Shown in pieces: positions 6,861-60,246 of a stretch of 64,000 nt of DNA. The first letter of the stretch is position 1. Every line of letters begins with the position of its first letter. Below the pieces are notes generated by a model, which worked only from the letters and a program-made list of their open reading frames with translations, made no database searches and was not told the DNA's origin. Origin of the DNA: Methylobacillus arboreus (GTDB lineage Bacteria; Pseudomonadota; Gammaproteobacteria; Burkholderiales; Methylophilaceae); assembly GCF_020532725.1 (NCBI RefSeq), contig NZ_JAJAVC010000004.1:1-64000 (forward strand), given 5' to 3'. The translations under genes and the position numbers were made by a program.

Positions 6861-8990
6861 GTGACGGCAATCAAGAAAACGATTCCCTATGGTCAGCATG
6901 AGCTGACTCTCGAAACCGGAGAAATTGCACGCCAGGCTGATGGCGCTGTCGTGGTGAGCTACGGCGATACCGTAGTGTTGGTGACTGTGGTTGGCAAGCG
7001 AGAAGTCAAGGCCGGCCAGGATTTCTTCCCGCTGACTGTTGATTACCAGGAGCGTACTTACGCTGCCGGTAAGATTCCTGGTGGCTTTTTCAAGCGCGAA
7101 GGCCGTCCTTCTGAGAAGGAAACACTGACTTCCCGCCTGATCGACCGCCCGCTGCGTCCGCTATTCCCGGAAGCATTTTTGAACGAAGTGCAGATTGTTG
7201 CGACTGTGCTGTCGTCGGATAGCGAAATCGATTCTGATATTCCAGCAATCATTGGCGCTTCTGCTGCACTGGCTGTTTCCGGTATTCCATTCTATGGCCC
7301 TATCGGCGCTGCCCGTGTTGGCTATATCAATGGCGAGTACGTACTCAACCCGATTGCCAGCCAACTGAAAGAAACCGAGCTGGACCTAGTGGTGGCTGCG
7401 ACTGACAGCGCTGTGCTCATGGTGGAATCTGAAGCCAAGGAACTGCCGGAAGATGTCATGCTGGGTGCCGTGGTCTATGGCCATGAGCAAATGCAGGCCG
7501 TCATCAATGCGATTAATGAGTTGGCGGCTGAAGTGGGTAACGAGCCATGGGATTGGGCTCCACCTGAAGAAAATACTGCCTTGATCGAGAAGGTAACAGC
7601 TGCTGCTGGTGATGATATCAATGCGGCCTACCAGATCAAGTCCAAGGGCGCGCGTTCTGCCAAGCTGGATGAGGTAAAGAGCCGTGTGCTGGCTGAGTTG
7701 GCCACTGAGGAAACTTCCAGTGCTGAAGCTGGCGAAATCAAGAATATTCTCCACAATCTGGAAGCCAAGATTGTACGTACCCAGATCCTGAATGGCGAAC
7801 CCCGTATTGATGGCCGTGATACCCGCACTGTGCGCCCTATCAGCATCCGTACTGGCGTGTTGCCGCGTACTCACGGTTCGGCATTGTTCACCCGTGGTGA
7901 AACTCAGGCTCTTGTGGTTGCGACTTTGGGTACCGGTCGTGATGAGCAGATCATTGATGCGCTGCAAGGTGAATATACTGACCGCTTCATGCTGCATTAC
8001 AACATGCCTCCCTATGCAACCGGTGAGACTGGCCGTGTCGGTACGCCAAAGCGCCGTGAAATCGGCCATGGCCGTTTGGCCAAGCGTGCTCTGCTGGCTG
8101 TATTGCCTAGCCAGGAAGAGTTCGGTTATACCATCCGCGTCGTCTCGGAAATTACTGAATCCAACGGTTCCAGTTCCATGGCATCTGTCTGTGGCGGCTG
8201 CCTGTCTTTGTTGGATGCAGGCGTGCCAGTCAAGGCGCATGTTGCGGGTATCGCAATGGGCCTGATCAAGGAAGGCAACCGCGTTGCTGTCCTGACCGAC
8301 ATCCTGGGCGATGAAGATCACTTGGGCGATATGGACTTCAAAGTGGCGGGTACTGAAACCGGTATTACTGCCTTGCAAATGGATATCAAGATCACTGGCA
8401 TCACGGCAGAAATCATGCAGGTTGCATTGTCACAAGCCAAGGAAGGCCGCTTGCATATTCTGGGTCTGATGAAAGATGCACTGAGCGAAACCCGCCAGGA
8501 ACTGTCTGCATTCGCACCGCGCATCATTACCATGAAGATCAATCCAGAGAAGATTCGTGATGTGATCGGCAAGGGTGGCGCAGTGATTCGCGCCCTGACG
8601 GAAGAAACCGGTACGACCATCGATATCGAAGAAGATGGCACAATTAAGATCGGTTGCACCAGCGCAGAAGCCGGGGAAGAAGCCAAGAAGCGTATTGAAG
8701 CGATTACCGTTGAGGTTGAAGTCGGGCAGGTATACGAAGGTACCGTAATCAAGCTGCTTGATTTTGGTGCGATTGTGACCCTGTTGCCAGGCAAGGACGG
8801 TTTGCTGCATATCTCCCAGATCGCGCATCAACGTGTCAATGCGGTCAGTGATTTCCTCAAGGAAGGCCAGGTCGTCAAGGTCAAGGTGCTGGAAGTGGAC
8901 GACAAGGGTCGTGTTCGCTTGAGTGCCAAGGCGCTGATTGAACAGCCTGCTGCGGAAGAAAAAGCGGCAGAGCCTGCAGCTTCCGAATAA
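6861..8990 (+). CDS. pnp: Polyribonucleotide nucleotidyltransferase (PNPase)
   Basis: PNPase degrades RNA 3' to 5' by phosphorolysis and is a core enzyme of the degradosome. The protein has 709 residues: two RNase PH-like domains (about 5-230 and 310-540) flanking a helical domain, then KH (about 553-615, with [13 protein letters not shown]) and S1 (about 620-690, with [16 protein letters not shown]). The [12 protein letters not shown] and [12 protein letters not shown] motifs of the catalytic core are present. The start is GTG at 6861 with aaagga upstream. It sits in the usual place behind rpsO. Confidence 0.98.
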
Positions 8991-57355: not shown

Positions 57356-57493
57356 GACACTCTCCTCGAGGATTTCCCTCTTCGATTTCCCTTCTGTTTT
57401 TGTTAAATAGCCGCAGTATCGCGATCGTTAATACAAGGTCTTATTTCGCCTAAGTTATAGACAGTCGGTGGCATCAGAATGCTTTTTTGATAT

Positions 57494-57508
57494 TATACGT
57501 TTTGTATA
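57494..57508. promoter_or_regulatory. TATAC-N5-GTATA operator before the ParD-like gene
   Basis: TATAC (57494-57498), GTTTT, GTATA (57504-57508) is an inverted repeat within an AT-rich promoter region (TTGATA at 57487-57492, TATATT at 57512-57517). The same repeat lies before the PNPOx-like gene (59515-59529). Confidence 0.6.
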
Positions 57509-57533
57509 CATTATATTTATTTTGGAGTACACC

Positions 57534-57791
57534 ATGGGCATCGTCAAGATTTCGGACACAATGCATGAAAACATCCGCTCTGCGAGCAATGCGTTCAGTC
57601 GTTCGATCAATTCGCAAGCAGAGCATTGGCTGCGGGTGGGGATGCTGGCGGAGATGCATCCGCAGTTGAGTTATACGGATATATGCCGCTTGTTGTTACA
57701 GATCGAGCAGAGTGGCGGGGAAGTGGGCAATGCCCTGAAATCGGCCGGGGGCGATGTGGCTTCCGTGATCAGTTTGAAGCGGACTGTGTGA
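57534..57791 (+). CDS. ParD-like RHH protein
   Basis: An 85-residue protein of the ParD-like antitoxin family (Pfam ParD_like). It starts with GIVKISDTMHENIRSAS, a ribbon-helix-helix strand and helix, then SINSQAEHWLRVGMLAEMHPQLSY. ATG 57534 has ggag 7 nt upstream. Instead of a ParE-like toxin, the next gene is a methionine aminopeptidase, whose start overlaps its stop (TGATG). Family members are often found in this position, but the function is not established. It is a candidate repressor of the TATAC-N5-GTATA sites. Confidence 0.88.
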   Translation: MGIVKISDTMHENIRSASNAFSRSINSQAEHWLRVGMLAEMHPQLSYTDICRLLLQIEQSGGEVGNALKSAGGDVASVISLKRTV

Positions 57792-58588
57792 TGCAGGTCG
57801 TGCTGCATGGCGCGGACGGGATCGCCAGGGCGCGCGAAGCGGGGCGGCTGGCTGCCCAAGTGCTTGCCATGATAGCGCCGCATGTGAAAGCTGGCGTGAC
57901 GACGGACGACCTTGACCTTATCTGCCATGAATTCATTGTCCAGGAATTGAAGGCCATCCCGGCAAATATTGGCTATGGCGGCTTTCCCAAGACCATTTGT
58001 GCTTCTGTCAATGACGTGGTGTGTCATGGCATTCCCTCGCCAGGCCAGGTGCTGAAGGATGGGGATATCCTCAATATCGATGTCGCAATCATCAAGGATG
58101 GCTGGTATGGCGATACCAGCCGCATGTATTTTGTGGGAGAACCAGCTCCTGCCGCCAAGGCGCTGGTGACTGCCACATATGAGGCGATGCGTGCTGGTAT
58201 TTTGCAGGTGAAGCCGGGCAATACGCTTGGGGATGTGGGATTTGCAATCCAGCAAGTGGCGCATGCCCATGGGTTCAGCGAGGTGAGGGAGTTTTGCGGA
58301 CATGGCATCGGCCAGGTTTACCATGCCGAACCGCAAGTGCTGAACTACGGCCAGCGCGGCAAGGGGTTACGGCTCAAGCCTGGCATGATTTTCACGGTGG
58401 AGCCGATGCTGAATACCGGAAAATCCATGACCAGGACATTGCAGGACGGATGGACTGTGCTCACCCGGGATGGCAGCTGGTCGGCACAGTGGGAGCATAT
58501 GGTGGCGGTCACCGAGGATGGTTTTGAACTGTTGACCGCTTGGCCGGACGGGTTGGGGGAATATCTCGAGATTGCATGTGCCGGATGA
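57791..58588 (+). CDS. map: Type I methionine aminopeptidase
   Basis: The enzyme removes the N-terminal Met from nascent proteins. The 265-residue protein carries the full metal/active-site set with E. coli numbering: His79, Asp97, Asp108, His171, Glu204 and Glu235. It is a complete, apparently active enzyme. It overlaps the ParD-like stop by one base and is probably a second, accessory MetAP (the housekeeping map is usually beside rpsB, not in this window). The long reading from 57626 would run through the ParD-like gene and is not used. Confidence 0.93.
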   Translation: MQVVLHGADGIARAREAGRLAAQVLAMIAPHVKAGVTTDDLDLICHEFIVQELKAIPANIGYGGFPKTICASVNDVVCHGIPSPGQVLKDGDILNIDVAIIKDGWYGDTSRMYFVGEPAPAAKALVTATYEAMRAGILQVKPGNTLGDVGFAIQQVAHAHGFSEVREFCGHGIGQVYHAEPQVLNYGQRGKGLRLKPGMIFTVEPMLNTGKSMTRTLQDGWTVLTRDGSWSAQWEHMVAVTEDGFELLTAWPDGLGEYLEIACAG

Positions 58589-58625
58589 TTCATTCCCTCC
58601 AGCTTTGCATGCCTGGGAGCAGACC

Positions 58626-59024
58626 ATGGACCGGGCCAATGCCGCGTTTGAAAGGCAAGATATCCAGGCTGAGGAATATTACCGGCAGGCACTTGAGATA
58701 GCAGAATCTGCAATGGTGGTGTGTTGCAGGCATGCTGGTGAAGCATGCCCTGCGTATTGCGATGCCGTGATTGCGGCATTTGTGATCAGCCATCATAACC
58801 TTGCTGGATTGTACCGGCAGCAAGGTGCGGAACTTCTTGCGGAAACGCATTACCTGGCGGCGCTGAAAAAGGTCAGCGCGTTGTGTGAGGATGACAGCCT
58901 TGGCGATTTGCCGCAGCTTGCTTCACGGCATATGACGCGGGTGTTGGGAGAATACGTCAGTTATCAGCAATTACGCGGCAGGTATTCAGCCAATCCCGGG
59001 CAGGGCGATATATTGCCGCATTGA
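58626..59024 (+). CDS. Small helical (TPR-like) protein of unknown function
   Basis: A 132-residue, helical protein with TPR-like repeats: AAFERQDIQAEEYYRQALEIAE, then HHNLAGLYRQQGAELLAETHYLAAL (in parts). It may be an adaptor. It is preceded by gggag 6 nt before ATG 58626; an in-frame GTG at 58578 overlaps map and is an alternative start. It appears to be in one transcript with the ParD-like/map pair. I do not recognise a named family with certainty. Confidence 0.75.
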   Translation: MDRANAAFERQDIQAEEYYRQALEIAESAMVVCCRHAGEACPAYCDAVIAAFVISHHNLAGLYRQQGAELLAETHYLAALKKVSALCEDDSLGDLPQLASRHMTRVLGEYVSYQQLRGRYSANPGQGDILPH

Positions 59025-59041
59025 TTGGCTGAAGAGATAAA

Positions 59042-59440
59042 TCAGAGTTTCTTGCCTGCATCAGGACCTGATTTCAAGGTGAAAATGTCGTCAATATGCA
59101 CCAGCACTGCGCACTTGGGTGTTTTCATGCCGTTCTTTTCCGCAAAGGCCAGCGCATTCTCATAGGGCGGCGTGCCTTCACTGAAAATCTCAGGAGTGCC
59201 GACGATGCGGTATCCATCCAAGGCAGCACGGTCGATCACGGCCACCGCTATCTTGGATCCATCGCGAATATTTTGTAATGTCTGGCCGCCGGTGTTTTCG
59301 TTAAAAATCAGGGTTTGGTCATCGTAGATGCGCAGGGAGCGTTTGGGGCCTATGTTCGGTAGCCCGTCCTTGTTGACGGTGGACTGGATCGGCAACTCTT
59401 TCGCCAGCATAGTCTTGATGGGCTCATTCAGTGTCTTCAT
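59042..59440 (-). CDS. PNPOx-like FMN-binding protein
   Basis: A 132-residue protein of pyridoxamine 5'-phosphate oxidase-like split-barrel fold (LPIQSTVNKDGLPNIGPKRSLRIYDDQTLIF, in parts, then NIRDGSKIAVAVID). Likely a flavin- or heme-binding stress/redox protein; the true PNPOx catalytic set is not evident. The ATG at 59440 has a gagga site upstream. It faces the map/TPR transcript tail-to-tail. Its upstream region carries the same operator as the ParD-like gene. Confidence 0.82.
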   Translation of the reverse strand: MKTLNEPIKTMLAKELPIQSTVNKDGLPNIGPKRSLRIYDDQTLIFNENTGGQTLQNIRDGSKIAVAVIDRAALDGYRIVGTPEIFSEGTPPYENALAFAEKNGMKTPKCAVLVHIDDIFTLKSGPDAGKKL

Positions 59441-59514
59441 TTCCTGTATTTCCTCAATGTTGATGAATGAATTGCTTGGTTTGTAGCAGCAAGGTATTGG
59501 GATTATATATTTTA

Positions 59515-59529
59515 TATACGAAATGTATA
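59515..59529. promoter_or_regulatory. TATAC-N5-GTATA operator before the PNPOx-like gene
   Basis: On the minus strand TATAC-ATTTC-GTATA; on the plus strand TATAC (59515-59519), GAAAT, GTATA (59525-59529). It overlaps an AT-rich promoter region (CTGCAA, 17 bp, TATAAA on the minus strand). Confidence 0.6.
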
Positions 59530-59619
59530 GTATTTGCAGGGGCGTAGGATACGGGCACATGTGGTTTTTTTCTGCCCGCATGGTTTAATCTCGCATTCAT
59601 CTGATTTTAGGTAGCAGCA

Positions 59620-60246
59620 ATGGCATCGTCTGATAAAGTATTGGAAATAAAGGAAACAGTAGATCCTGGCAAGAAGCTAGGCATTATTGCACTGTTGCTG
59701 TCCGTGTTCTGCGTTCCGCTTCTGGGCGTTGTAGTGGGGGTTTTCGCCTACCTGAAATCACGCGCCCATGGGCACAGCAATTTGTTTGCCATCCTTGCCA
59801 TCATCATTAACCTGATCTACACCGTGCTCTTGCTGTTGTTTCTTTCCGGGATTTTTTACGTTTCCAAGAGCGCGCTGGAACAGCGCAAGCAGGAAGAAGC
59901 GCTTGAAGCACTTACGCTGCAGCAACAGCGTGAAGAGCGGGCACAGGGCAATATTGATACTGACCGCATTGCCGAGGAGTTACAGGCTAAGCTGGAAATG
60001 TTCCGCGAGACGCATGGCGCTTATCCATCCTATGGCCAGTTGTTGTCCGAGCGAGGCCCATTGGCTTTGAGCGAGGAACAGCGTGAAGTGTTGGTCAACA
60101 CCGCCACGCCGCGCAGCACGCGGGTAGGCTTTCAGGCTTGTGTGGCATCCAATGGCGTGGGCAGCGGTGCCATCCTCAGGCCGGGTTCCGGCAATCCGCC
60201 GCTGATCGCGGGCAATTGCAACAATATGGCAGCTAGGCGCGAGTAA
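59620..60246 (+). CDS. Membrane protein with two N-terminal segments
   Basis: A 208-residue protein. A DUF4190-like hydrophobic pair (about 17-45 and 50-85: LGIIALLLSVFCVPLLGVVVG, LFAILAIIINLIYTVLLLLF, in parts) precedes a periplasmic helical region and a small C-terminal domain with two Cys. No family is certain. Its 3' end overlaps the PepSY gene end by 14 bp (convergent). Confidence 0.75.
   Translation: MASSDKVLEIKETVDPGKKLGIIALLLSVFCVPLLGVVVGVFAYLKSRAHGHSNLFAILAIIINLIYTVLLLLFLSGIFYVSKSALEQRKQEEALEALTLQQQREERAQGNIDTDRIAEELQAKLEMFRETHGAYPSYGQLLSERGPLALSEEQREVLVNTATPRSTRVGFQACVASNGVGSGAILRPGSGNPPLIAGNCNNMAARRE

Follow-up and report, generated by a model that had tools for sequence, protein, structure and literature searches.

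A putative ParD-like repressor paired with an accessory methionine aminopeptidase lies behind a conserved, 11-bp-phased operator array in Methylobacillus arboreus and other proteobacteria

N-terminal methionine excision is essential, and some bacteria carry a second methionine aminopeptidase (MetAP). In Bacillus subtilis, the available passages of PMC1266368 describe a non-essential second MetAP, YflG, beside the essential one. For the Rv0366c-Rv0367c pair, the available part of PMC6362051 reports an assignment of Rv0367c to the Pfam family PF11903, which the authors set aside, and names a zeta/PezT-like toxin as the partner. The HupZ protein of group A Streptococcus is covered in the excerpts of PMC9237417 and PMC7865249. 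ParD-like and MetAP terms are both present in the excerpt of PMC3948609, for separate ORFs, and a table row in PMC12654330 holds hypothetical/ParD-like pairs (6), the partners being unnamed in that passage. No account of a ParD-like/MetAP pair or of its operator was found in the passages of open-licence literature searched (including PMC6504116); the pair already stands side by side in existing gene annotations. The pairing of an antitoxin-family regulator with an accessory enzyme of housekeeping type therefore seems to be undescribed in the open-licence literature searched.

The locus described here lies in the window, by which we mean the whole 64-kb stretch of M. arboreus DNA that was analysed. 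The first gene (57534..57791, + strand) encodes an 85-aa ParD-like protein, the presumed regulator, which matches PF11903 with 113 bits against a cut-off of 23. The second (57791..58588, +), whose start overlaps the stop codon of the ParD-like gene at 57791, is a map paralogue encoding an accessory type I MetAP of 265 aa (TIGR00500, 306.6 bits against a cut-off of 171.35). A TPR-like ORF (58578..59024, +) overlaps the 3' end of map and scores 23.2 bits for TPR_12, under the cut-off of 30.1. On the opposite strand, a gene for a HupZ-like protein with a PNPOx fold (59042..59440, −; PNPOx_N, 45.6 bits against 28.1) gives 132 aa from the ATG chosen at 59440, although the ORF could begin at 59581. 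Divergent from it runs a gene for a 208-aa protein (59620..60246, +), which is membrane-like by eye and for which a Pfam search gave no family over its cut-off. Around the locus are a FecR-like gene, TonB receptors and a PepSY protein. Judging from these sequences and their relatives, we consider it probable that a ParD-like repressor acting on an 11-bp-phased operator array controls itself and a spare MetAP, with a second operator downstream.

The initial annotation had reported the motif TATAC-N5-GTATA at 57494-57508 and 59515-59529, and both 15-mers are present there. Operator 1 consists of the main unit TATACGTTTTGTATA (57494..57508, +), with a score of 22.2 against the operator matrix described below, and a second unit, TATACATTATATTTA (57505..57519, +; 13.9), exactly 11 bp downstream. 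Operator 2 comprises TATATATTTTATATA (59504..59518, +; 21.8) and, 11 bp from it, TATACGAAATGTATA (59515..59529, +; 22.2), which reads TATACATTTCGTATA on the − strand. The 11-bp-phased second unit at each place (57505-57519 and 59504-59518) had been missed in the first reading. A consensus scan, the only basis for these assignments, gave a promoter-like match TTGATA-16-CATTAT overlapping operator 1 (57487..57514, +; 9/12) and a match TATACA-16-TATAAT that faces the PNPOx gene and is covered by operator 2 (59502..59529, −; 10/12). Shuffled versions of the region gave a mean of 2.7 promoter-like matches in the same scan and the region itself gave four, an excess that is not clear.

Within the window, TATAC-N5-GTATA has just two matches, compared with a mean of 0.00 in 100 shuffles. 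In the whole genome (3,045,306 bases) it occurs at just two places, both at this locus; the backwards pattern also occurs twice. The looser TATAY-N5-RTATA gave four places in the genome against seven for its backwards control, and a three-TATA array, one mismatch being allowed, gave eight against ten, operators 1 and 2 being two of the eight. As the backwards control is equally frequent, rarity by itself is weak proof of an operator, and the genome-wide pattern counts are not above composition. What goes beyond chance is the clustering before these genes, together with the fit to an operator matrix from other species. Three of the genome's four TATAY-N5-RTATA places fall within 2.04 kb, before these genes, and both operators match the matrix, in keeping with the earlier suggestion of a shared operator and a very small local regulon. 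The fourth such place is at C14:335231.

The matrix is palindromic and was built from 47 sites, with 24 upstream regions offered for training; one of these, L022, gave no site. Training left out the window and the same-genus copy in genome G004 (L024 and the window were excluded), as well as the truncated locus L023. Training sites were picked with a consensus set by eye after the window had been seen, a circularity that only the hold-out loci answer. In the 64 kb, the next best score after the four operator units is 9.6, from a shifted overlap with operator 1; apart from the 11-bp-spaced partners of the two 15-mers, no other window site reaches 10. A score of at least 21.8 was reached once in 6 Mb of DNA simulated to resemble the window, and the best score in 15 simulated 64-kb windows was 15.8. 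A site of at least 15 turned up somewhere in 13 of 240 simulated loci, and in none of them in the 90-base upstream slot, where 11 of the 12 real hold-outs have one.

The operator, an 11-bp-phased array of TATAYGnnnCRTATA units, is conserved in sequence, phase and location. We see the same signal upstream of the ParD-like/map genes of relatives, in most cases as two or three 15-mers that overlap at 11-bp intervals. When 90 bases were scanned for the map branch and 130 bases for distant relatives, a site of at least 13.9 was found upstream of 37/39 map-branch ParD-like genes (24 of the 39 had been offered for training), and two units stand exactly 11 bp apart in 31/39; among distant, mostly toxin-linked relatives, 1/26 has a site of at least 13.9. 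These upstream counts omit L017, a near copy of L016, and include L023. The two upstreams under 13.9 are that of L022 (12.7) and that of L023, which is without an operator and has also lost the N-terminus of its ParD-like protein. Twelve hold-out loci from a plasmid collection (Ewingella, Pantoea, Psychrobacter, Rahnella, Pseudoalteromonas, Klebsiella twice, Sulfitobacter, Novosphingobium, Cupriavidus, Erwinia and Proteus) span Alpha-, Beta- and Gammaproteobacteria, and all twelve have a site of at least 13.9 within 90 bases upstream and a MetAP neighbour. The pairing of a ParD-like gene with a MetAP gene, which the initial annotation had singled out as unusual, is thus conserved. On a Sulfitobacter plasmid (L155, 1532-2707) the map and ParD-like genes are divergent, unlike the usual operon, and a two-unit operator lies between them (14.6 and 13.6).

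The units are rich in TATA and overlap promoter-like matches, and could on that account be AT-rich promoter cores that serve only RNA polymerase or a global AT-binding protein. We regard this as barely plausible, for both the YG...CR positions outside the TATA elements and the 11-bp phase are shared by three classes, and an equally strong site is found in just the one distant relative noted above. Exact matches to TATAYGNNNCRTATA argue in the same direction: there are 16 such places across 20 pair-bearing genomes or records, against four for the backwards control, and 13 of the 16 stand before a ParD-like gene. One of the three other places is inside a metX-like ORF and another is 235 bp before a TonB-receptor-like ORF (both named by eye); in two of the genomes holding these three places, the backwards control has one and three places. 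In G043, a genome with the pair, TATACGCATCGTATA (L111, 1501-1515) fits the operator pattern in full and lies 36 bp upstream of an ORF that looks by eye like a periplasmic-binding protein; it is possibly an extra target or a chance occurrence. A wider regulon was considered and set aside, as few sites lie away from ParD-like genes in either the M. arboreus genome or the 20 genomes and records.

At L049 (1501-2000) the regulator and a good operator are kept, and the map gene behind them is a broken remnant. At L016 the intact linked map is followed, some 1.5 kb further downstream, by a second, partial copy (7570-7950), and in Pantoea sp. At-9b (L038, 6105-6635) msrA directly follows the linked map. 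When the whole region was searched against plasmids, no place covered 80% of it; the matches listed covered just the ParD-like/map part. The initial annotation had included the TPR-like gene in the repressed operon, but this gene falls outside the conserved pair, with no match in G004 and none in the plasmid collection. Relatives of the TPR-like protein at 33-35% are found elsewhere in the M. arboreus genome and in 4/5 same-genus genomes.

Ribbon-helix-helix DNA-binding proteins are dimeric, with an N-terminal strand and two helices, and a conserved palindromic operator before their own gene is a feature of the class. The latter trait is present here, in the 37 of 39 upstreams given above, which supports the earlier prediction that the ParD-like protein would be autoregulatory. 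Structural comparison did not confirm the ribbon-helix-helix fold. The AlphaFold monomer has a helical N-terminus, not a strand, and is uninformative for a ribbon-helix-helix dimer; a sequence search of the PDB gave no convincing relative, only two IMP dehydrogenases at E 0.2. One homologue has a weak FitA-like_RHH match (E 0.037). The PF11903 profile matches those proteins that were tested, namely the window protein, L015, L031 and the toxin-linked L028. No ParD-like relative was found in the phage records and viral contigs searched; the protein does match phage family phrog_16013 (function not assigned) at E 3.6e-9, and a phage connection of the gene is possible. On balance, we consider the ParD-like protein a probable autoregulator, dedicated to the accessory MetAP.

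The linked MetAP has an intact active site. Seven positions that we take to be catalytic or metal-binding, chosen from E. coli MetAP, are invariant in 39/39 MetAP rows. A second full-length MetAP is encoded elsewhere in 16/16 genomes with a linked one (at C11:839211 in M. arboreus), and we take this unlinked MetAP to be the housekeeping copy. In a tree of 39 sequences (23 linked MetAPs, a subset of the linked ones fetched, and 16 others), the linked enzymes fall into two groups, separate from the rest, with two label changes compared with a shuffled mean of 12.7. A single origin of the linked MetAPs is possible, being compatible with the starred branches of the tree.

These data also bear on whether the pair is a true type II toxin-antitoxin system, in which the ParD-like protein would bind and inhibit a MetAP that is harmful when free. 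PF11903 is named as an antitoxin family, the close or overlapping gene order fits, and 22/26 distant relatives precede a RelE/ParE-like ORF, with L013 preceding a zeta-like ORF (by eye); of the remaining distant relatives, L071 stands before an unlike 63-aa ORF, and at L060 and L063 no ORF was found. These counts cover 26 of 28 distant loci (L064 and L072 were left out), and three weak matches had no locus. We nevertheless judge such a system very unlikely: the partner is a type I MetAP that retains all seven catalytic and metal residues, and not a recognised toxin; another full-length MetAP is present in every one of the 16 genomes; and PADLOC gave no hit. Moreover, a partner-binding tail should be kept, whereas we see no conserved toxin-binding C-terminal region, mean pairwise identity among map-branch ParD-like proteins being 62% over columns 1-58 and 16% beyond (an alignment of 26 proteins of this branch, L023 left out). 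The initial annotation's placement of MetAP in the toxin position is therefore not borne out. The toxin-linked branch seems, from its upstream sequences, to have a different operator, CTACAAATGTAG, found upstream in seven fetched loci (L006, L007, L014, L027, L028, L029 and L075) that represent four toxin-linked places, three of them seen in two loci each.

Operator 2 sits between the divergent HupZ-like (PNPOx) and 208-aa genes. The initial annotation had assigned it to the PNPOx gene; the site is there, but it is not simply a PNPOx promoter element, given the divergent arrangement and a site in G004 without PNPOx. The possibility that it belongs to the PNPOx gene alone, with the 208-aa gene a bystander, draws on two features: the promoter-like match towards PNPOx is covered by the operator, and the operator is nearer to the PNPOx ATG at 59440 (63 bp) than to the 208-aa ATG (90 bp). 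Were the PNPOx ORF to begin at 59581, operator 2 would lie inside it. Comparison across the genus makes this assignment unlikely. A homologue of the 208-aa gene is found in 6/6 genus genomes searched, and an operator before it only in M. arboreus (G000) and G004, both with the ParD-like/map module directly upstream; the matrix scan found none before this gene in G001, G002, G003 and G005. G004, which has no match to the PNPOx gene or the TPR gene, carries at the matching place a single, weaker unit, GATATGAAACATATA (16.5), 83 bp upstream of the 208-aa ATG. Simulation yields sites this strong once or twice per Mb, so that a chance occurrence in a 200-bp gap is unlikely. In G001 the ParD-like/map pair lies at another place and the 208-aa gene is without an operator, indicating that the presence of the site goes with physical linkage to the module.

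The PNPOx gene has a different distribution. Among 61 genomes searched it is found only in M. arboreus, and in a phylum sample matches occur in 11/398 genomes, the other ten at just E 1e-7 to 6e-4. The best plasmid relatives are from Novosphingobium (71%), Rhodococcus (62%) and Fusobacterium (54%). No site of at least 8 lies in the PNPOx regions fetched from the first two (L086 and L087), further evidence against an operator tied to PNPOx alone; the AT-rich Fusobacterium region has weak sites of up to 13.5. On the Novosphingobium plasmid the ParD-like and PNPOx genes are far apart, with the operator at the ParD-like gene only. The viral contigs searched contained no PNPOx relative, and no clean boundary emerged when the insertion flanks were aligned. 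The HupZ-like gene was probably acquired horizontally. Because G004 has the operator without PNPOx, and no operator stands there in the four relatives that lack the module at this place, the 208-aa gene or else the module was probably the earlier target of operator 2, and the HupZ-like gene may be a newcomer, perhaps brought under the same control.

Putting this together, we infer that the ParD-like protein binds these sites, that regulation is negative and that the linked MetAP is a spare enzyme; another regulator could own the sites. The ParD-like protein would be a small DNA-binding repressor acting on the TATAYGnnnCRTATA array over its own promoter, and repression would keep the two-gene operon of ParD-like protein and spare MetAP low until some signal lifts it. 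A second operator stands downstream, before the 208-aa gene, both here and in one sister genome. In M. arboreus the HupZ-like gene now faces operator 2, so that either or both divergent genes would be repressed along with map. As to the signal, the map-branch ParD-like proteins begin with MGI(V/L) in 26/26, with the start codon read as M, and Met-Gly-Ile also starts 12/12 hold-outs (ATG, with GTG in a few; L023 is not counted). Such a start is MetAP-cleavable and placed where the DNA-contacting strand of a ribbon-helix-helix protein would be. The N-terminus might then read MetAP activity, giving a feedback loop on N-terminal methionine excision: with adequate activity, Met would be removed and the ParD-like protein would repress the spare map; at low activity, from metal shortage or an inhibitor, Met would be retained, repression would fail and the spare enzyme would be made. 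We offer this as a speculative and rather improbable extension, and distant, mostly toxin-linked relatives also seem by eye to start with small second residues, which counts against its specificity.

A dedicated regulator with a readable operator in three proteobacterial classes makes the control of a second MetAP directly testable, and its regulon predictable from operator sequence. It also suggests that a family of antitoxins has been the source of a regulator that simply controls a housekeeping-type enzyme. Among described systems, YflG of B. subtilis shares with this locus the status of second MetAP; it comes from a different phylum, and the available passages mention no ParD-like partner. 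The HupZ of group A Streptococcus (PDB 5esc) is the closest PDB relative of the PNPOx-like protein by sequence (E 4.2e-32), a likeness of sequence alone, as organism and context differ. Rv0366c-Rv0367c has PF11903 in common, but its partner, in the available part of the source, is a zeta/PezT-like toxin and not a MetAP. A further comparison is with the PF11903 ParD_like antitoxins that have a RelE/ParE-like or zeta partner, which share with our locus the Pfam family, a small first gene and a close or overlapping second gene. The map branch differs from these toxin-linked proteins in its TATAYGnnnCRTATA arrays, in its unconserved tail and in its partner, a MetAP with an intact active site.
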